Source: a virus. Taken from it: a stretch of DNA of 64,000 bases. A model generated the notes under the pieces. It saw only the letters and a program-made list of their open reading frames with translations, searched no databases and had not been told where the DNA came from. This document shows positions 24,561 to 39,544 of this stretch, in pieces. A program made the translations under genes and the position numbers. The stretch lies in IMG/VR virus record IMGVR_UViG_3300025941_000015, positions 1-64,000 of that record; one strand, written 5' to 3'. Position 1 is the first letter of the stretch, and each line of letters opens with the position of its first letter.

Positions 24561-24851
24561 ATGAGTACCACCACCATCACTCTGGCTGCAGCAGGGTTCC
24601 TCTTCCTCACGAGCATCAAGTTCATCGCCGGTGCCATCGGCGAGGAGATGATGAAGAACCTCGACCTCACCGCTGACATCGAGCTGGCCATCGCTGTTGT
24701 AGCCACACCCCTTGTCATGCTTGCAACAGGTATGTCGTACAGCGAGGCGCAGATCGGCACAGCAGCAGCGTTCTTCATCTCTACTGCCTGGTCTGCAATC
24801 GCAGTGTTCCGTACCAAGACGCTGTTGCAGATGACGCACGGCATCAGATGA
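24561..24851 (+). CDS. Small membrane protein, unknown
   Basis: A 96-residue protein with three hydrophobic segments (about 5-27, 40-58 and 66-84). They are separated by acidic and polar turns. It could be a lysis regulator or a third holin-like protein, but it is far from the endolysin. It overlaps the next gene by ATGA. Confidence 0.65.
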   Translation: MSTTTITLAAAGFLFLTSIKFIAGAIGEEMMKNLDLTADIELAIAVVATPLVMLATGMSYSEAQIGTAAAFFISTAWSAIAVFRTKTLLQMTHGIR

Positions 24852-25825
24852 GTACCTTCGTTGTACTCGGCGATGCGGACGCAGCACCACGGCTCGTCAC
24901 AGCAACGCTGAATGACTTCCTCGACACACATCTTGAAGTGACACCTGACGACGACTTCGTCATAGTCATTGCAGTTCGCAACCCGCCCCGCCCTGCCATC
25001 AAGCACGTCATCGAGTGGTGCCAGAAGGCTGGCATCTACTACACCATCGTTGCATCCAGCGACAGGGTGAAGATGCCGGAGGGCGTAGCGGAGTTCACAG
25101 TCGACAGCCAGTTCCTCGTGAAGGCTGTTGAGGACGGGTACGTCTTCGGGAGAGACGCTGCTATTGTGCTCGCTCTCGTCGGGGCGGAAGACCCGACTGT
25201 CGACGTCACTCGTGCTCTGGCACGGGCCGCCGACTCACACATGGTGATACGTGACCTCACTGAGGGAGCCATCACCTACATCAAGTTCCATGGAGACACC
25301 GTGGACATCCCCACCATTGAGGAGAACAACATGGCTGACGAAGCCGAAGAGCTGACACTGGAAGAACTGGTCTCACTGGCCGCCGAGGGTGACGAGGAGG
25401 CTGATGCGGCGCTGCGCGAAGCATGTGCCGAGTTCGACATCGATCCCGACGAGTACGCCACGTGGGAAGAGGTCGGCGAGCTGCTCGAAGCAGCGATGTC
25501 CGAGGAGCCCGAAGAGGAGGCCGAGGAAGAGGCCGAGCCCGAGCCGGAAGAGCCCACCGAACCTGCCGATGGCTGGACCGCAGCGGCGTTGAAGAACCTC
25601 ACCCTCAAAGAGGTGCGTGACATCGCCAACGCAGCCGGGATCGAGGGAGCCAAGACGGCGCCCCGCCCCGACCTCGTGAAGGCACTCATCGCTGGTACGG
25701 GTGACGAGCCCGCCAAGGCGACGAAGGCTGCGAAGGCGAAGCCGAAGCCCGCCGAGGGGACCGACGACGTCAGGGCTCTCGCTTCGGCGATCCTCGACGA
25801 ACTGGTCGCACGCCTGTCGGCATGA
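24848..25825 (+). CDS. Acidic protein with Rossmann-like N terminus and SAP/Rho-N-like C terminus
   Basis: A 325-residue protein in three parts. Residues 1-150 have alternating beta strands and helices (DDDFVIVIAVRNPPRPAIKH), suggesting a nucleotide-binding fold without a P-loop. Residues 160-245 are extremely acidic (EEPEEEAEEEAEPEPEEPTE). Residues 245-290 (LKNLTLKEVRDIANAAGIEG) resemble a SAP or Rho N-terminal helix-extended-helix nucleic-acid binder. A Lys/Ala linker and a terminal helix follow. The function is unknown. Confidence 0.65.
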   Translation: MSTFVVLGDADAAPRLVTATLNDFLDTHLEVTPDDDFVIVIAVRNPPRPAIKHVIEWCQKAGIYYTIVASSDRVKMPEGVAEFTVDSQFLVKAVEDGYVFGRDAAIVLALVGAEDPTVDVTRALARAADSHMVIRDLTEGAITYIKFHGDTVDIPTIEENNMADEAEELTLEELVSLAAEGDEEADAALREACAEFDIDPDEYATWEEVGELLEAAMSEEPEEEAEEEAEPEPEEPTEPADGWTAAALKNLTLKEVRDIANAAGIEGAKTAPRPDLVKALIAGTGDEPAKATKAAKAKPKPAEGTDDVRALASAILDELVARLSA

Positions 25826-26238
25826 GCGACTGGCCCGAGTCAGGGGCCGGGGTACGGAGTGAGCCGGGGCGTGCGCAGCGCTCCGGCTCTCGCCGTTCTC
25901 ACGACATGTACACCTTCTGGCTCGACACGATGGAGCCGGTCACCCGTGGGCGCGCCGTCATGATCTTCGTCGACCGGCCACGGTTCCACGCCAACCTCAA
26001 GACGATCCGCAAGCAGCTCGCTGGCGGTGACGACGTCGACATGAAGCCGATCAACGATCGCATCCGGGCTGGCATGAAGGCGTACGCCGCCGCCATCAGG
26101 GCCGGGCACGTCGACATCGACGGCAAGCCTGCCTGGCCCATCTTCATGAGGATGTGGCCGAAGTACGTCACCAGCGCCACCAGGGCGGCCGCTACGGAGG
26201 ATGAGATTGCTTCTGGGAAGAGGCGGTGGGACGAGTAG
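25822..26238 (+). CDS. Hypothetical basic protein at end of tail operon
   Basis: A 138-residue protein with ATGA overlap at its start. A basic N terminus (PGRAQRSGSRRSHDM) is followed by a helical region and IFMRMWPKYVTSATRAAATE. No known domain is recognised. It is the last gene before the hairpin that closes the late operon. Confidence 0.6.
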   Translation: MSDWPESGAGVRSEPGRAQRSGSRRSHDMYTFWLDTMEPVTRGRAVMIFVDRPRFHANLKTIRKQLAGGDDVDMKPINDRIRAGMKAYAAAIRAGHVDIDGKPAWPIFMRMWPKYVTSATRAAATEDEIASGKRRWDE

Positions 26239-26241
26239 AGT
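26236..26241 (+). promoter_or_regulatory. Possible -10 element (TAGAGT) before leader
   Basis: TAGAGT overlaps the stop of the 25822 gene and lies eight bases before GTG 26250. If used, the transcript begins just before a strong hairpin, so the transcript could be attenuated. No -35 is recognised. Confidence 0.3.
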
Positions 26242-26249
26242 CGCTCTCC

Positions 26250-26411
26250 GTGAACGCGAAGGAGGGGCCCCACCATCGAGGCCCCTCCTTCAAGATCCCC
26301 TACCAAGAGACCGCTAGCAAAGGAATCCCTCCGAAGAAAGGAACGAGCCCGATGAGCACTCGAAGTCTCATAACAAAGAACGTTGCAACTAACCGGAGGA
26401 ACCCTTGCTAG
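26250..26411 (+). CDS. Possible leader ORF (19 or 53 codons)
   Basis: An open frame from GTG 26250 spans the hairpin. A shorter start, ATG 26352, has AGAAAGG eleven bases upstream and gives a 19-residue peptide ending RRNPC. Its stop TAG overlaps TTG 26405 of the next gene, so it would be translationally coupled. Length and position fit a leader peptide rather than a working protein; coding status is uncertain. Confidence 0.35.
   Translation: MNAKEGPHHRGPSFKIPYQETASKGIPPKKGTSPMSTRSLITKNVATNRRNPC
26259..26290 (+). terminator. Strong hairpin closing the late operon
   Basis: AAGGAGGGGCC (26259-26269) pairs perfectly with GGCCCCTCCTT (26280-26290) over a 10-base loop. It follows the last tail-operon gene by 20 bases. 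The T-tract is only TT, typical of high-GC actinobacterial terminators. Confidence 0.75.
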
Positions 26412-27130
26412 CAACGCAGATCCTAATCCCTGAGCGGTGGCTCGTACAACCTGCAGTGGTCTCAATGCAAGCGCTGCAGGAACCGACGCGCAAGCTGCGG
26501 CTGAGCCTCATCGCTGAGCGGGCGGCGTTGTCTGCCTTCGCTGCCCTTCGCTTCTGTGACAAGCCGATGATGGTCGATCTGTCGATGAATCCACCCAGTG
26601 ACATGGGGATGAGGATTCTCCGGCACATCCTGGTCTCAGGAGACCGCCGCTACTGGTCGTGGACGGCCACGAAGAAGGAAGCCCGCGGCAAGGTGCGCTC
26701 GTCACTCATGTGGGAGCTGCGGACTTCGAGCGGGAACATCAGCACCTCCCTGGGACCGCTGCTCGAAGACGGGGTGCTGGAGATCACGAAGAGGGCGAAC
26801 GGGAACGAGACCGTTGCCTTCACGCCGTTGGGCAAGATGCTCTTCGCCGAGCTGCAGTGGCGTTGGTTCCTGCTGGAAGCTGACCCCGAGTTCCTGCAGC
26901 CGCTGGCCGACAGCTACGGGTGGCAGGAGATCTCCATCCAGGTGGACAAGCGGATCTCTTTCAATGGGGCGGACCCCACCCGTAAGGTCGAGGTCATCGC
27001 TGCGATACGGGAGATTCCCCTGGTCACAGAGCTGTTGACCTCTACACCACAGAGGTCGCAACGACGTTCACACCTCTATGAGGTAGAGAAAGTTCCTCTA
27101 CGTGGTAGAGGTGTTATCTCTACCTCCTAG
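26405..27130 (+). CDS. Winged-helix-like DNA-binding protein
   Basis: A 241-residue protein. TTG 26405 is chosen because GGAGG lies seven bases upstream; there is no ATG nearby. Residues about 95-145 (SSLMWELRTSSGNISTSLGP, then LLEDGVLEITKRANGNETVAFT) look like a MarR/ArsR-style winged helix: recognition helix followed by a beta hairpin. The C-terminal ~30 residues are encoded by the tandem repeats at 27074-27139, so it may bind its own 3' end. It lies at the head of the replication genes and may act as repressor or origin binder. Confidence 0.6.
   Translation: MLATQILIPERWLVQPAVVSMQALQEPTRKLRLSLIAERAALSAFAALRFCDKPMMVDLSMNPPSDMGMRILRHILVSGDRRYWSWTATKKEARGKVRSSLMWELRTSSGNISTSLGPLLEDGVLEITKRANGNETVAFTPLGKMLFAELQWRWFLLEADPEFLQPLADSYGWQEISIQVDKRISFNGADPTRKVEVIAAIREIPLVTELLTSTPQRSQRRSHLYEVEKVPLRGRGVISTS
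27037..27057 (+). promoter_or_regulatory. Perfect inverted repeat GACCTCT-N7-AGAGGTC
   Basis: GACCTCT (27037-27043) and AGAGGTC (27051-27057) form a perfect dyad inside the 3' end of the winged-helix gene. Its core is a one-mismatch version of the CTCTA-N5-TAGAG repeat found 34 bp downstream, so it is probably a weaker fourth site. Confidence 0.5.
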
Positions 27131-27139
27131 AGGTGTCCA
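27074..27139 (+). repeat. Three tandem 22-bp repeats with CTCTA-N5-TAGAG dyads (iteron-like)
   Basis: Copies begin at 27074, 27096 and 27118, exactly 22 bp apart. Each opens with CTCTA, five variable bases and TAGAG; copies two and three share GTGT after it. About two helical turns separate the sites, so a bound protein would sit on one DNA face. They lie between a DNA-binding protein gene and the replication genes, and just before an AT-richer segment. A replication origin or a cooperative operator are both possible. Confidence 0.7.
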
Positions 27140-27146
27140 CCACCTC

Positions 27147-27169
27147 AAACCCTTATGCCGTAAGGGTTT
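27147..27169 (+). terminator. Hairpin AAACCCTTA / TAAGGGTTT
   Basis: A perfect 9-bp stem (27147-27155 with 27161-27169) with a 5-base loop, ending in TTT. It lies directly after the tandem repeats and 17 bases past the winged-helix stop. Probable rho-independent terminator. Confidence 0.7.
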
Positions 27170-27303
27170 CCCGACCACCTAAGTGTTCAGTATAGAACTA
27201 CGAAGTACCTCAATCTCTATCAGACTTCGTCAGATATCGATAGATGTACTTCTTCAAGAAGGATCTTGTACGTGCGCCTGCGGCGCACGAAGGGGAAGAA
27301 ACC
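27170..27303 (+). promoter_or_regulatory. AT-richer leader region before replication genes
   Basis: This stretch is clearly AT-richer than its surroundings and has no convincing ORF. It holds TATAGA and TATCAG as possible -10 elements. A 7-bp hairpin, GTGCGCC-TGC-GGCGCAC (27272-27288), lies right before the AAGGGGAAG ribosome site of ATG 27304. With the tandem repeats upstream it is a candidate origin/promoter region. Confidence 0.45.
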
Positions 27304-27969
27304 ATGGATGTATCAACAGCGTTCAGCAGGAGGCAGACCCTCCGCTCCGAGCAGAACTACCGGACCAATCTCAAGGTCGATGCGCTCGACTACGAGGCGA
27401 TGACCGCCTTTGCAGTGAACGACGGTGTGCCCCCGGCACTCGCCGGACTGACCAAGAGCGCCTACAAGGACAGCGAGGAGTACTCAGTCATCGGCATGGC
27501 CATCGAGGCGATGGAGACGATCGAGATGTCCGACGGCCTGTGGGTCGTGGCCCAGTCAGCGAAGGCTGCCGGTGGTGTGGCGTCAGCCATCTACACCGGG
27601 GCGCTCCGGCGAGGGCTGGCAGCGAAGTGGTTCGGCTTCCCCGAGCTGAGCACAGCGTTCACCGACCGGGTGTCGATGTCCGCTCGTGCCGAGGAGTGGG
27701 AGCAGGGGCAGATGGCCGACTGGCTGTGGGAGCTGGACTCCATGCGGTTCTGCTACGACCTCCTCGTCATCCACGGGGTGACCGACACACTGCTCACCGA
27801 CTTCGTGGCCAAGGAGCTGTACAGCCTGCTGGCCATCCGCTACGGCCGCGGTCTCTTCACCGTGGTGACGTCGAGGGTGGGTGGTCTCGGCGAGGACACC
27901 GCAGCGCGCAACTCACTGCGCCTGATGATGGAAGAGGCGTACGCCCTCTACCGCATCGGCGGCCGCTGA
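27304..27969 (+). CDS. Possible degenerate helicase-loader-like protein
   Basis: A 221-residue protein, ATG 27304 behind AAGGGGAAG. Its C-terminal half (FCYDLLVIHGVTDTLLTDFV, then AIRYGRGLFTVVTSRVGGL) resembles Walker B and sensor 1 strands of DnaC/DnaI loaders (DLLVIDD, RxxxxxTIxTSN). The acidic pair is replaced by HG, and no P-loop is visible. It lies two genes before the DnaB-type helicase, where loaders are common. The call rests on pattern and context only. Confidence 0.45.
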   Translation: MDVSTAFSRRQTLRSEQNYRTNLKVDALDYEAMTAFAVNDGVPPALAGLTKSAYKDSEEYSVIGMAIEAMETIEMSDGLWVVAQSAKAAGGVASAIYTGALRRGLAAKWFGFPELSTAFTDRVSMSARAEEWEQGQMADWLWELDSMRFCYDLLVIHGVTDTLLTDFVAKELYSLLAIRYGRGLFTVVTSRVGGLGEDTAARNSLRLMMEEAYALYRIGGR

Positions 27970-28418
27970 TGGAAGGCAACGACCTCGGCTCGTACTGGAG
28001 CCAGAAGATGGTGGTCATCGCCGAGCCAACGCTGTTCATCCCACCGCCCGACTCGTACCGCATCTCACTGGGCAGGCACCGCTACGGGAAGAAGGACGCA
28101 GCCGCCGCCGAGTTCGAGCTGAACCGTGAGATGGTCAGCTTCATCGTGGGCATGGGCCGCACCCGCAACGTGCCCACTGAGATCTGGACGTTCATCACCG
28201 ATGAGGACATCGTCGAGGAGCTGGCCCGACGGCTGGAGCAGGTGGCTGGCAACACCATCGTCGGGTGGGAGATCTGGGATGACGAGCGCGACGCCGTCCT
28301 GAACCTCCGGGTCGACGCCTCGATCCACACGGTCTATGACGCCGAGGCCGAGCGCGTCGAGACCCTCTGGGGCATGCGTGGTCATCGTGTGCAGCGTGGG
28401 AAAGCACCGACGTCATGA
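27969..28418 (+). CDS. Hypothetical protein between loader-like and helicase genes
   Basis: A 149-residue protein, ATG 27969 overlapping the previous stop (TGATG). It is acidic with alternating strands (NTIVGWEIWDDERDAVLNLR) and no known catalytic motif. It overlaps the helicase gene by ATGA, so a replication role is suggested by context only. Confidence 0.65.
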   Translation: MEGNDLGSYWSQKMVVIAEPTLFIPPPDSYRISLGRHRYGKKDAAAAEFELNREMVSFIVGMGRTRNVPTEIWTFITDEDIVEELARRLEQVAGNTIVGWEIWDDERDAVLNLRVDASIHTVYDAEAERVETLWGMRGHRVQRGKAPTS

Positions 28419-29698
28419 GAAGGCTGAACGCAGAGCAGTTGCTCATCAGTCGCATCCTCGTTGACGCTGACCTCATCACCCCGAACGATGCCAACCTCCA
28501 CGCACGGTTCTTCGGCAGCCCTGGTGCGGCCGACGCCTGGATCTGGATCAACCAGTACCGCACCGAGTACGGACAGGTGCCGACGGCCGAGGCGTTCCTG
28601 CGCAAGCACAGCGGGTACCAGCTCGACCTCTCACCGGACGAGCCGATGGGTGCGCTCATCGACGAGGTCTTCGCTGGGTACAAGCGGCGCCTCGTATCGG
28701 AGGGTCTGCAAGCAGCAGTGCAGGGGTTCTCCGACACCAGCGACGCCGACGCTGCGATGGCCGTCATGCAGGGTGTCATGTCGACGGTGGCCACCGACCT
28801 GTCGCGATCAGAGATCCAGGTCTCGGTGGACATCATTGGCAAGCTCGTTGTGAAGTACGTGAACGCAGAGGAGAACCACATGCCCGGCATCCCAACGGGG
28901 TTCAGCATGATCGATGAAGCACTCGGTGGTCTGCAGGACGAGCAGCTCGTCACCATCGTTGGTCTACCGAAGAGGATGAAGTCGTCCTACCTCCTGGCCA
29001 TGGCGATGTCCGCCGAGCGCAACGGCTACCGGGCTGGTGTCGTCAGCTTCGAGATGTCCAACACCGAGCAGCAGGCGCGGTACCTGTCACTCGGTGCTGG
29101 AGTCGGCTTGACGCGCATGCAGCGTGGTGAGCTGACCGAGGCGGAAGTGAACCGCCTCTACGAGTTCGAGGCCATGGTCACCGAGACCGACGGCTGGGGC
29201 AGCCTCGTCTTCATCCACGATGTGGGTGGCGCCGACACCGTCGAGGGTCTCGTGGCGAAGCAGGAGCAGCACGGCTTCGACGTCCTGTTCGTCGACGGTC
29301 TGTACCTCATGACCGACTCGCTGGGTGAGCCGAAGGGGTCGAGCCAGGCGCTGACCAACATCACAAGAGGAGTGAAGCGCTTCGCACAGGTGGCCAAGAT
29401 CCCCATCGTCTGCACGACACAGGCGTTGCACAGCCGCACCACCAAGGCACGTGGCGTGGAGATGGAGTCGATCGGCTACACCTCGTCGTTCGCTCAGGAC
29501 TCCGACGTGCTCATCGGCATCGACCGCCCCGACATGCAGCTCCCCGTGGCCAAGCTCAAGGTCATTGCAGCCCGCAACGCCATGGGCATGGAGTGCGAGG
29601 TGTCGATCGACTACACCAAGGGTGTCATCTCCGACCATGGTCCGGTGTCGCCCGAGCTGACAGCGGCGTTGAGGTACGGAGGGGATGACGATGATTGA
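28415..29698 (+). CDS. dnaB: DnaB-like replicative DNA helicase
   Basis: A 427-residue RecA-fold helicase. Residues about 180-215 (QLVTIVGLPKRMKSSYLLAM, then AGVVSFEMSN) hold Walker A and the DnaB-specific FSLEM-like motif; the Walker B region is FDVLFVDGLYLMTD. The P-loop is unusual (GLPKRMKSS: the Gly before Lys is Met). IVCTTQALHSRTTKARGVEM fits the Q-loop region (motif H3). The N-terminal domain (1-150) is short. It likely unwinds the fork ahead of the polymerase and works with the overlapping primase. Confidence 0.85.
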   Translation: MRRLNAEQLLISRILVDADLITPNDANLHARFFGSPGAADAWIWINQYRTEYGQVPTAEAFLRKHSGYQLDLSPDEPMGALIDEVFAGYKRRLVSEGLQAAVQGFSDTSDADAAMAVMQGVMSTVATDLSRSEIQVSVDIIGKLVVKYVNAEENHMPGIPTGFSMIDEALGGLQDEQLVTIVGLPKRMKSSYLLAMAMSAERNGYRAGVVSFEMSNTEQQARYLSLGAGVGLTRMQRGELTEAEVNRLYEFEAMVTETDGWGSLVFIHDVGGADTVEGLVAKQEQHGFDVLFVDGLYLMTDSLGEPKGSSQALTNITRGVKRFAQVAKIPIVCTTQALHSRTTKARGVEMESIGYTSSFAQDSDVLIGIDRPDMQLPVAKLKVIAARNAMGMECEVSIDYTKGVISDHGPVSPELTAALRYGGDDDD

Positions 29699-30659
29699 GG
29701 AGATCCTCCGAGAGCTGGGTGTGCGGGTCACGTCCGTATCCGGTGACGAGATCCAGGGGTACTGCCCCGTGCACGCTCTCGTCGAGGGCACCGACCAGTC
29801 GAAGCCGAAGTGGTACATCAACGCTGAGTCGGGCGCATGGATCTGCTTCACGTGTGGGCAGCGCGGCTCGCTCCCCCACCTCGTCGAGGCTCTCGGTGGT
29901 GACACCGACACGATCGAGAAGCTCAAGCTCTCGGCTGCGCTCTCGATCACACAACGGTGGCACGAGGACGACGAAGGCACGGTCATCGACAAGGACGAGC
30001 CGGTCGTCGACCCCGACCTCTTCGATGCCAACCCCCCGCCTCCAGTCAGGATGCTCGACCTCAAGGACGTTGACCCGGCGGTGGCCGAGCGCTACAACGT
30101 GCGGTGGGATGCCAAGGGCAAGTGCTTCATGCTCCCGATCTACTCCGCCGACAACCGACTGCTCGGCTGGCAGGAGAAGAGCAAGGGCTACTTCATGAAC
30201 GTGCCCAAGCGTGTGCACAAGGCCGAGTCCCTGTTCGGATGGCACACGTACAGAGAAGGTGCGCTCATCGTTGTTGAGTCACCACTCGACGCTCTACGCT
30301 TCGCCTCCCATGGGTACGCCGCCGTCGCCACGTACGGTTCCTTCATCAGCGAGCTGCAGGCGCTGCTCATCACACGCGCCGACCAAGCTATCCTCGCCTT
30401 CGACAACGACGATGCAGGAGACCACGCCATGGATCAGGCAGCGGTCTTCCTACGTGAGTGGGACACGAACGCATCGTTCCGGTTCTTCAACTACCCACCG
30501 GGTACACGGGGCAGTGACCCCGGAGAGCTGCCCGTCACTGCGCTACACAGCGGCGTTGCGCACGCCACGCCATGGTTCACACACAGCAAGAAGGAGCAAG
30601 ACAATGGGAACACCAAGCCACGACGTCCGCCTCGCCGGACCGTACGCAGTCTCTGGTGA
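29685..30659 (+). CDS. DNA primase (CHC2 zinc finger + Toprim)
   Basis: A 324-residue primase. The N-terminal zinc site is Cys27/His30 (GYCPVH) with Cys54/Cys57 (ICFTCG), the CHC2 pattern. The Toprim core has LIVVESPLDALRF (about 193-205, catalytic Glu) and LAFDNDDAGDHAM (DxD, about 236-248). It is half the length of bacterial DnaG and lacks a helicase-binding C-terminal domain, as in many phage primases. The start overlaps the helicase stop by 14 bases; ATG 29691 is an alternative. Confidence 0.88.
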   Translation: MTMIEEILRELGVRVTSVSGDEIQGYCPVHALVEGTDQSKPKWYINAESGAWICFTCGQRGSLPHLVEALGGDTDTIEKLKLSAALSITQRWHEDDEGTVIDKDEPVVDPDLFDANPPPPVRMLDLKDVDPAVAERYNVRWDAKGKCFMLPIYSADNRLLGWQEKSKGYFMNVPKRVHKAESLFGWHTYREGALIVVESPLDALRFASHGYAAVATYGSFISELQALLITRADQAILAFDNDDAGDHAMDQAAVFLREWDTNASFRFFNYPPGTRGSDPGELPVTALHSGVAHATPWFTHSKKEQDNGNTKPRRPPRRTVRSLW

Positions 30660-30665
30660 TCGGTC

Positions 30666-31210
30666 ATGAGGATCGGACTCACCGGGTACGCCGAGTCAGG
30701 CAAGGACGAGGTGGCTGATCAGCTCGTCGAAGAGTTCGGCTTCGTCAAGGTCAACATGAGTGATGCGATCGACAGGTACCTGCTCATCCTGAACCCCATC
30801 GTCAGCAAGTCCGGCACGAACTACGCCACCATCCGAAGGGCGTACAGCTACGTTGACGCCAAGCGCATCCCCGAGGTCCGTCGCCTGCTGCAGTGTCTCG
30901 GCACTGAGGTCGGTCGTGCCATCGACCCGGACGTGTGGGTGAAGGAGCTGGAGAAGGAGGCGTCGAAGCACGAGCACGTCGTCACCACAGGCATCCGCTA
31001 CGCCAATGAGGTCACTCCGGGGATGACCCTCATCAAAGTTGACCGCCCCGGCTACGGCCCACTCAACTCACACTCGACGGAGGACTTGAGGCGGTCTTCG
31101 AGATGGCCTACAACGTCATCCACAACACCCGTGATCTGGATGGGCTGCGGGTCACGACCCGGACCATGGCTCTGGCTCTCGGGCTGCACCCCCTGGAGAC
31201 AGCACGGTGA
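30666..31210 (+). pseudogene. Deoxynucleoside monophosphate kinase, reading frame broken
   Basis: The N-terminal 138 residues are typical: P-loop GYAESGKDEVAD, LLQCLGTEVGRAIDPDVWV and TGIRYANEV. At about 31080-31086 the natural sequence leaves the frame. The original frame becomes Trp/Ser/Pro-rich noise, while the -1 frame (from 31082) reads GLEAVFEMAYNVIHNTRDLD and ends at 31208-31210, giving the expected ~181 residues. No slippery heptamer is apparent, so a one-base loss, a sequencing error or an unusual recoding site are possible. It would supply dNDPs for replication. Confidence 0.7.
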
Positions 31211-31214
31211 AACC

Positions 31215-31397
31215 ATGCCAGCGATCCGCTGGTTGAAGCGACCGCGTCCTGTGCTCTACCACTACGCTTGTGACAAGTGCAGGATGACTCATAGCAACTA
31301 CGTTGCACCTGACCTCTCGTCCGTCTGGCACGTCTGCAGGTACAAGACCAAGATGGGCAAGGACATGAAAGCAGAGAGGCAGATGATCCTCCAGTGA
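31215..31397 (+). CDS. Small Cys/His protein, possible zinc finger
   Basis: A 60-residue basic protein starting at ATG 31215, five bases after the kinase -1-frame stop. YACDKCRMTHSNYVAP and WHVCRYKTK give a C-x2-C...H...C arrangement that could bind zinc. It happens to share a frame with the kinase 5' part, so it could be misread as one 243-residue ORF. The GTG of the helicase gene overlaps its stop. Confidence 0.6.
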   Translation: MPAIRWLKRPRPVLYHYACDKCRMTHSNYVAPDLSSVWHVCRYKTKMGKDMKAERQMILQ

Positions 31398-38425: not shown

Positions 38426-39544
38426 ATGACAACACGGAGCACGCTCGCCCAGATCAGGCGAGACATTGAGAAGAAGTACGGACCGGACGCACTCATCAAC
38501 GGAGCAGAGTTGAAGAACCGTGTCATCCAACGCATCACCACAGGCTCGTTGAGCCTCGACGTGATGCTGGGTGGTGGCTGGCCCGTCAATCACTTCAACG
38601 AGATCGTCGGTGAGTTCTCCAGCGGTAAGACATCGCTGGTGTACAAGACCATTGCTGCCAACCAGGCGCTCGACCCCAAGTGGTTCGTCGTGTGGGTGGC
38701 GAGCGAGCCGTTCGTTGCTGAGTGGGCCGAGGCTGCCGGGTGTGACCTGTCTCGCTTCGAGATCATCGACGACAACGTCATCGAGTCTGCGTTCACCATG
38801 CTGTTGATGTTCGTCGAGAACCATGCGTGCGACTGCGTTGTGATCGATTCGCTGCCAGCCATGCTCCCGTCGGACGAGAACGACAACGGTCTGGACAACT
38901 GGCAGGTGGGGCTGGCTGCCCGGCTCAACAACAAGTTCTTCCGAGTGGCAGGCTCCAAGGTCAAGCGCTCGATGACCGGTGACGAGCGCGCCTGCACCTT
39001 CCTCGTCGTGAACCAGTTCCGAGAGAAGATCGGTGTGACCCACGGTGACAACCGCACGACGCCCGGCGGCAGGGGCAAGGACTTCGCCTACTTCACCAAG
39101 ACCGAGGTGCGTCGCAAGGAGTGGCTGGAGGTCGACAAGGAGCGTGTCGGTGTCCGTATCGCTGCCCGCACGGTGAAGAACAAGAGCGCCCCGCCGCAGC
39201 GTGGTGCCGAGGTCAACTTCTACTTCGCCGATGCACCTGGCTTCCCGGCAGGATCGTTCGACGTCGCCGATGACCTCGTCGGCACGGCTGTGTACACCGA
39301 CGTCATCCACCGCATCGACGGCGGCACGACGTACTGGTTCGACGACCAGAAGCTGGGCGTAGGTCTGGCGAAGACCTTGGCCCTGGTGCGTGAGGATCTC
39401 GACCTCCAACGTGCGATCCGCGAGCGAACCCTCAAGGTCACGGCAACCTCATACGCACCGGACATCGACCTCACCGTGGCCGAGCAGATCGTTCCTGAAC
39501 CCCCGCCTCGCAAGCTCAAGCTGGCAGCGAAGAATGCCTCGTGA
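38426..39544 (+). CDS. recA: RecA-like recombinase
   Basis: A 372-residue protein. ITTGSLSLDVMLGGGWPVNH leads to Walker A GEFSSGKTS (about 61-69); Walker B is CDCVVIDSL with the following LPAMLP. NQFREKIGVTHGDNRTTPGG is the RecA L2-type region, with RGKDFAYF after it. The C-terminal domain is shorter than bacterial RecA and ends in a basic stretch (PPPRKLKLAAKNAS). It likely carries out strand exchange with the ssDNA-binding protein and nucleases encoded nearby. Confidence 0.92.
   Translation: MTTRSTLAQIRRDIEKKYGPDALINGAELKNRVIQRITTGSLSLDVMLGGGWPVNHFNEIVGEFSSGKTSLVYKTIAANQALDPKWFVVWVASEPFVAEWAEAAGCDLSRFEIIDDNVIESAFTMLLMFVENHACDCVVIDSLPAMLPSDENDNGLDNWQVGLAARLNNKFFRVAGSKVKRSMTGDERACTFLVVNQFREKIGVTHGDNRTTPGGRGKDFAYFTKTEVRRKEWLEVDKERVGVRIAARTVKNKSAPPQRGAEVNFYFADAPGFPAGSFDVADDLVGTAVYTDVIHRIDGGTTYWFDDQKLGVGLAKTLALVREDLDLQRAIRERTLKVTATSYAPDIDLTVAEQIVPEPPPRKLKLAAKNAS

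Follow-up and report, generated by a model that had tools for sequence, protein, structure and literature searches.

A probable lambda-O-type replication origin with phased dyad iterons in an uncultured tailed phage

Introduction

The replication origin of phage lambda is located inside gene O and harbors four dyad iterons, which start at positions 39034, 39054, 39078 and 39101 and are bound by dimers of the O protein. A 40-bp AT-rich stretch follows the iterons, and the next gene, P, encodes the helicase loader (PMC5043065, PMC3349717). From the iteron coordinates, the first iteron starts at codon 116 of gene O. In the iteron origins of plasmids such as RK2, P1 and pSC101, phased initiator sites are found beside an AT-rich region (PMC5043065). 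Here we deal with an array of phased dyads in uncultured tailed-phage DNA, found in a window of 64,000 nt (the whole stretch analyzed) within the 105,626-base (105.6-kb) IMG/VR record IMGVR_UViG_3300025941_000015. The array, which lies just ahead of a set of replication genes, is very probably an origin of the lambda O type. In large uncultured phages, origins are seldom located because skew and homology fail; the array described here is a candidate origin placed to within about 200 bp.

The dyad array and the AT-rich stretch

The repeated unit is the dyad CTCTA-N5-TAGAG, three perfect copies of which are found at an exact period of 22 bp: iteron 1 at 27074-27088 (CTCTATGAGGTAGAG), iteron 2 at 27096-27110 (CTCTACGTGGTAGAG) and iteron 3 at 27118-27132 (CTCTACCTCCTAGAG). 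An imperfect fourth dyad, or outer iteron, occupies 27040-27054 (CTCTACACCACAGAG); it carries one mismatch, lies 34 bp from the next dyad, giving spacings of 34, 22 and 22 bp across all four, and forms the core of a longer palindrome, GACCTCT-N7-AGAGGTC. The three perfect dyads together can be read as a single palindrome of 67 bp, at 27070-27136. All of these features, and the AT-rich stretch below, are listed without a strand. A first-pass annotation of this DNA had described three dyads at a 22-bp period with a weaker fourth at 27040, a description that is borne out exactly for the three and with one mismatch for the fourth.

The array is unique within its genome. Further exact copies of CTCTA-N5-TAGAG are absent from the rest of the 105,626-base record, and when the record was searched blindly for triplets of identical 5-N-5 dyads spanning no more than 110 bp, this array was the only one returned; among 30 equally large random genomes, the same search returned one array in total. 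A pattern scan of IMG/VR for two neighboring CTCTA-N5-TAGAG dyads gave no match, and cultured phages likewise had no match to the region at the DNA level.

Of all 150-bp segments in the record, 27111-27260 has the highest AT content (44% GC against a record mean of 64%); this stretch, on the downstream side of the array, is a candidate DNA-unwinding element. Its lowest 40-bp GC is 0.35, a rank of 0.0035. Hairpins are enriched in the same region (z = -4.4 for 27133-27303), so that the AT-richer, hairpin-bearing stretch reported earlier after the repeats is real. The hairpin-rich stretch precedes the loader gene at 27147-27300 on the plus strand, and its stems include AACCCTTA..TAAGGGTT, GAAGTAC..GTACTTC and GTGCGCC..GGCGCAC. 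A nested stem, GAAGTAC..TCTATC..GATAGA..GTACTTC, is found at 27201-27260 directly before the ribosome-binding site of the loader gene; it may represent either a structure in the leader RNA or a signal for single-strand initiation.

The array overlaps the 3' end of a probable initiator gene on the plus strand, 26405-27130, a 241-residue open reading frame (ORF) with a TTG start after GGAGGA and a weak winged-helix signal at residues 67-148. This ORF ends inside the third dyad, and across its last 125 bp the third-position GC drops from about 0.9 to 0.35; the array there is therefore probably free of protein-level constraint. The array had initially been placed between a winged-helix-like gene and the replication genes; its location before the helicase and primase genes stands, whereas its separation from the 26405 gene is replaced by an overlap. 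The next gene, 27304-27969 on the plus strand, appears to encode a divergent DnaC-like helicase loader that has not kept the Walker A motif. With three perfect dyads at 22 bp and an imperfect one at 34 bp, the array corresponds to the roughly four dyads at 20-24 bp of lambda-O-type origins, as do its position at a weakly winged-helix gene, the adjacent AT-rich stretch and the loader gene, here without Walker A, that comes next.

Arrays in related phages

Relatives of the phage were recruited from IMG/VR contigs by alignment of the SF2 helicase; a scan of prokaryote genomes gave distant SF2 helicases only, and direct viral-contig searches for relatives of the 26405 protein, the 27304 protein and DnaB yielded none that was confirmed. 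The closest relative, L012, shares 55% identity in this helicase. It harbors three AGACG-N5-CGTCT dyads (one mismatch in the middle one), also at an exact 22-bp period, in the order of a 205-residue ORF, the array just outside it, a 222-residue ORF, a 149-residue gene and DnaB. The distance from array to DnaB is 1,334 bp in L012 and 1,341 bp in the window. The dyad sequence is entirely different between the two phages, whereas arm length, spacer, period, number and place are identical. On sequence comparison, this pattern reads as the trace of a DNA-binding protein that co-evolves with its sites, and not as simple sequence conservation.

The region from 0.9 to 2.7 kb upstream of DnaB was also scanned blindly for three phased dyads. 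Arrays were found in 20 of 47 relatives, L012 included, against none of 47 shuffled regions. The strict detector used misses lambda, which has one imperfect iteron and is picked up at relaxed settings, and the count is therefore probably a lower bound. In the other 19 array-bearing relatives, the array lies inside a winged-helix gene, starting between codons 102 and 142. Representatives of this gene match replication initiation O-like PHROGs (phrog_270, 428, 678 and 391, with best E-values of 6.8e-17 for phrog_270 and 4.2e-15 for phrog_428), although two long-form initiators match more weakly, one only at 0.056. The next conserved gene, of about 215 residues, matches the DnaC-like helicase loader phrog_50 (4.3e-38). 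As judged from their sequences, most relatives with arrays closely reproduce the lambda plan. In three relatives of 92-95 kb, four dyads occur in a row, 22-24 bp apart, and the number of matches elsewhere is zero to two; since neither 22 nor 23 bp is a multiple of three, selection on the repeats acts at the level of the DNA and not of the protein. The class of dyad also tracks the recognition helix of the initiator, RRT or RST proteins being found with GTGTC sites (15/15) and KET or TAT proteins with GGGTC sites (4/4), in counts uncorrected for the relatedness among them.

The form of the initiator varies among these phages. In L038, L122, L136 and similar contigs, which make up most of the relatives, the O-like initiator is divided between a winged-helix ORF of roughly 170 residues and a separate ORF of about 120-140 residues that comes after it. 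In L097, L105, L130 and L131 it is a single ORF of 420-458 residues.

The window loader can be linked to those of the relatives, as the 27304 protein aligns with the loader of L038 at a score of 76 (31 +/- 5 for shuffles). By sequence, it is a distant homolog of their DnaC-like loaders. Both 27304-27969 in the window and 3446-4114 in L012 encode such homologs, in which Walker A is lost and a Walker B-like region is kept; these two loaders possibly no longer hydrolyze ATP.

Weighing the origin reading

An iteron-type origin before the replication genes, as the first-pass annotation had proposed, remains the best reading, and comparison with the arrays in relatives backs it far better than a single sequence could. 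The type has to be refined, in that these are dyad iterons of the lambda O type and not the direct-repeat iterons of plasmids. By analogy, dyad iterons are expected to bind initiator dimers. In the proposed mechanism, the 26405 winged-helix protein would bind each 15-bp dyad as a dimer, the three strong sites being separated by two helical turns and a fourth site lying further out. The complex of phased dimers would wrap or bend the DNA and help to melt the adjacent downstream AT-rich stretch. The 27304 loader would then put the phage's own DnaB helicase (28415) on the single strands, to be joined by the primase (29685).

A number of results weigh against this reading. The cumulative GC skew, which had been suggested as a check, shows no turning point at the array, either in the record or in three relatives; since skew is silent at the relatives' arrays too, it is not discriminating in these phages. 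Strict detection finds no array in 27 of the 47 relatives, and no dyad array was detected in the stretches read from Streptomyces phages of the BRock type. The AT-rich stretch, significant in the window, is merely moderate in many relatives: by the lowest 40-bp GC within 150 bp, the downstream side of the array falls below the upstream side in 19/20, yet compared with random places in its own contig it reaches significance (rank 0.05 or less) in only 7/20. The 26405 protein has no PHROG match and only a sub-threshold winged helix in Pfam. Its residues 67-135 align weakly with the O-like winged-helix profile of the relatives (hhalign E 0.0023, probability 13%), and its similarity to the L012 protein is marginal (p 0.008). 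Single-sequence AlphaFold models of the 26405 and 27304 proteins reached pLDDT values of 34 and 40, which made them unusable, and they were not used. The 26405 protein also gives no match to Phage_rep_O (Pfam PF04492), for which one relative is sub-threshold (E 0.12), a result that bears on membership of a protein family and not on the origin plan. The 26405 protein is a probable initiator by position and analogy, not by firm homology.

The same array might instead be a cooperative operator. In that case a transcriptional regulator, either repressor or activator and perhaps the 26405 protein itself, would occupy the phased dyads and control the replication operon from 27304 with no role in initiation. 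The first-pass annotation had cautioned that such an operator would look similar, and it is kept here as a rival, since the array lies 170 bp before the start codon of 27304, with late genes on one side and replication genes on the other, all on the plus strand, has palindromes two turns apart that fit cooperative dimers, and is followed by a hairpin-rich leader. However, a scan of 26200-27400 for sigma-70-like promoters (other promoter types being outside it) found none, the dyads are confined to one locus per genome, and the arrays of 19 relatives are inside the coding sequence of O-like initiators, not at a promoter. We consider the operator unlikely.

The remaining two alternatives concern RNA and chance. 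The 67-nt hairpin at 27070-27136 folds very stably (z = -7.2), beyond what the dyad arms provide, only 0.1% of arm-preserving controls being as stable, and it could act as a terminator, an attenuator or a structural mRNA signal, or extrude as a cruciform. Yet any palindrome array would fold in this way, a T-run is absent after the hairpin, and the relatives have three to four phased dyads with irregular spacings of 22, 23 and 24 bp and weaker hairpins (down to -19 kcal/mol), so that such a role is improbable. In the window palindrome the spacers pair as well as the arms; the mirrored order of the dyads is the sole account that we can offer for this extra pairing. Rfam gave only chance microRNA-like matches to the palindrome. 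That the repeats could simply reflect codon repetition where the 26405 ORF ends is suggested by the overlap of that ORF with the array, but the 22-bp period breaks the frame, such an array arose in 0 of 2000 randomized versions of the local 404 bp, and L012 has the same plan in another sequence just outside its ORF. Comparison with relatives refutes this explanation, leaving it a negligible probability.

The gene neighborhood

The window covers part of a tailed phage, with a baseplate J-like protein and a tail protein with a Tail_P2_I domain encoded upstream of the array. Also upstream, at 24848-25825, is a gene for a 325-residue protein with a Rho_N domain (Pfam PF07498) at residues 248-280, which is kept in L012 upstream of the initiator gene. 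Downstream, all genes of the replication set are on the plus strand. The loader gene is followed by a conserved 149-residue gene of unknown function (27969-28418), which keeps its syntenic position both in relatives and in Streptomyces phages of the BRock type, and then by genes for the DnaB-like replicative helicase (28415-29698) and DNA primase (29685-30659). A deoxynucleoside monophosphate kinase is encoded at 30666-31397, between primase and SF2 helicase, and has a detectable homolog in only one of the first-fetched relatives. The set is completed by a DNA polymerase, whose annotated homologs are DNA polymerase I, and a UvsX-like recombinase.

Comparison with known systems

The origin appears to be of the known lambda O kind, and its two divergent proteins may prove to be a variant. 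A more specific proposal, which we advance only tentatively, is that L012 and the phage of the window represent a lineage with a conserved origin plan (dyad length, 22-bp phase and place) in which both partners have changed. The site would be new and recognized by a novel type of initiator that belongs to none of the known families, and the loader would have turned into an adaptor without ATPase activity. In the group as a whole, site sequence and initiator helix would change in concert. If true, there would be separate origin-specificity groups among otherwise related phages. The pairs of initiator helices and sites (CTCTA, AGACG, GTGTC and GGGTC) provide material for studying joint change in initiator and origin specificity. 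In addition, candidate origins can be found across the phage group, without a sequence consensus, by looking in O-like genes for phased dyads immediately downstream of the winged-helix domain.

With respect to iteron plasmid origins, the window shares phased sites next to an AT-rich region, but its repeats are dyads rather than direct repeats; the DnaA box TTWTNCACA, expected in such origins, has no occurrence in the window. Among cultured phages, those of the BRock/LuckySocke type, which infect Streptomyces, come nearest, with helicase identities of about 33-38%. They have a homolog of the 149-residue gene, DnaB (33%), primase and SF2 helicase (38%) in the same order, whereas their loader gene lies several kb further upstream.

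The O-like IMG/VR phages (L052, L097, L105, L119, L122, L136, L149 and others) share with the window an array upstream of DnaB, phased at 22-24 bp, and the order of winged-helix gene, loader, DnaB, primase and SF2 helicase. In contrast to the window, their sites are GTGTC-N6-GACAC or GGGTC-N6-GACCC and lie inside the initiator gene, their initiators are recognizably O-like, and their loaders have an intact Walker A.

Compared with lambda itself, the sites differ, TCCCT-N7-AGGGA in lambda being replaced by CTCTA-N5-TAGAG. The window also has an outlying fourth site 34 bp off, an array shifted from the middle of the initiator ORF to its 3' end, a DnaB and primase of its own, and an AT-rich stretch that is longer and milder (44% GC). 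The two origins are nevertheless alike in having dyad iterons (four in lambda, 20-24 bp apart) in or at the initiator gene, an AT-rich stretch downstream, and the helicase loader gene next.
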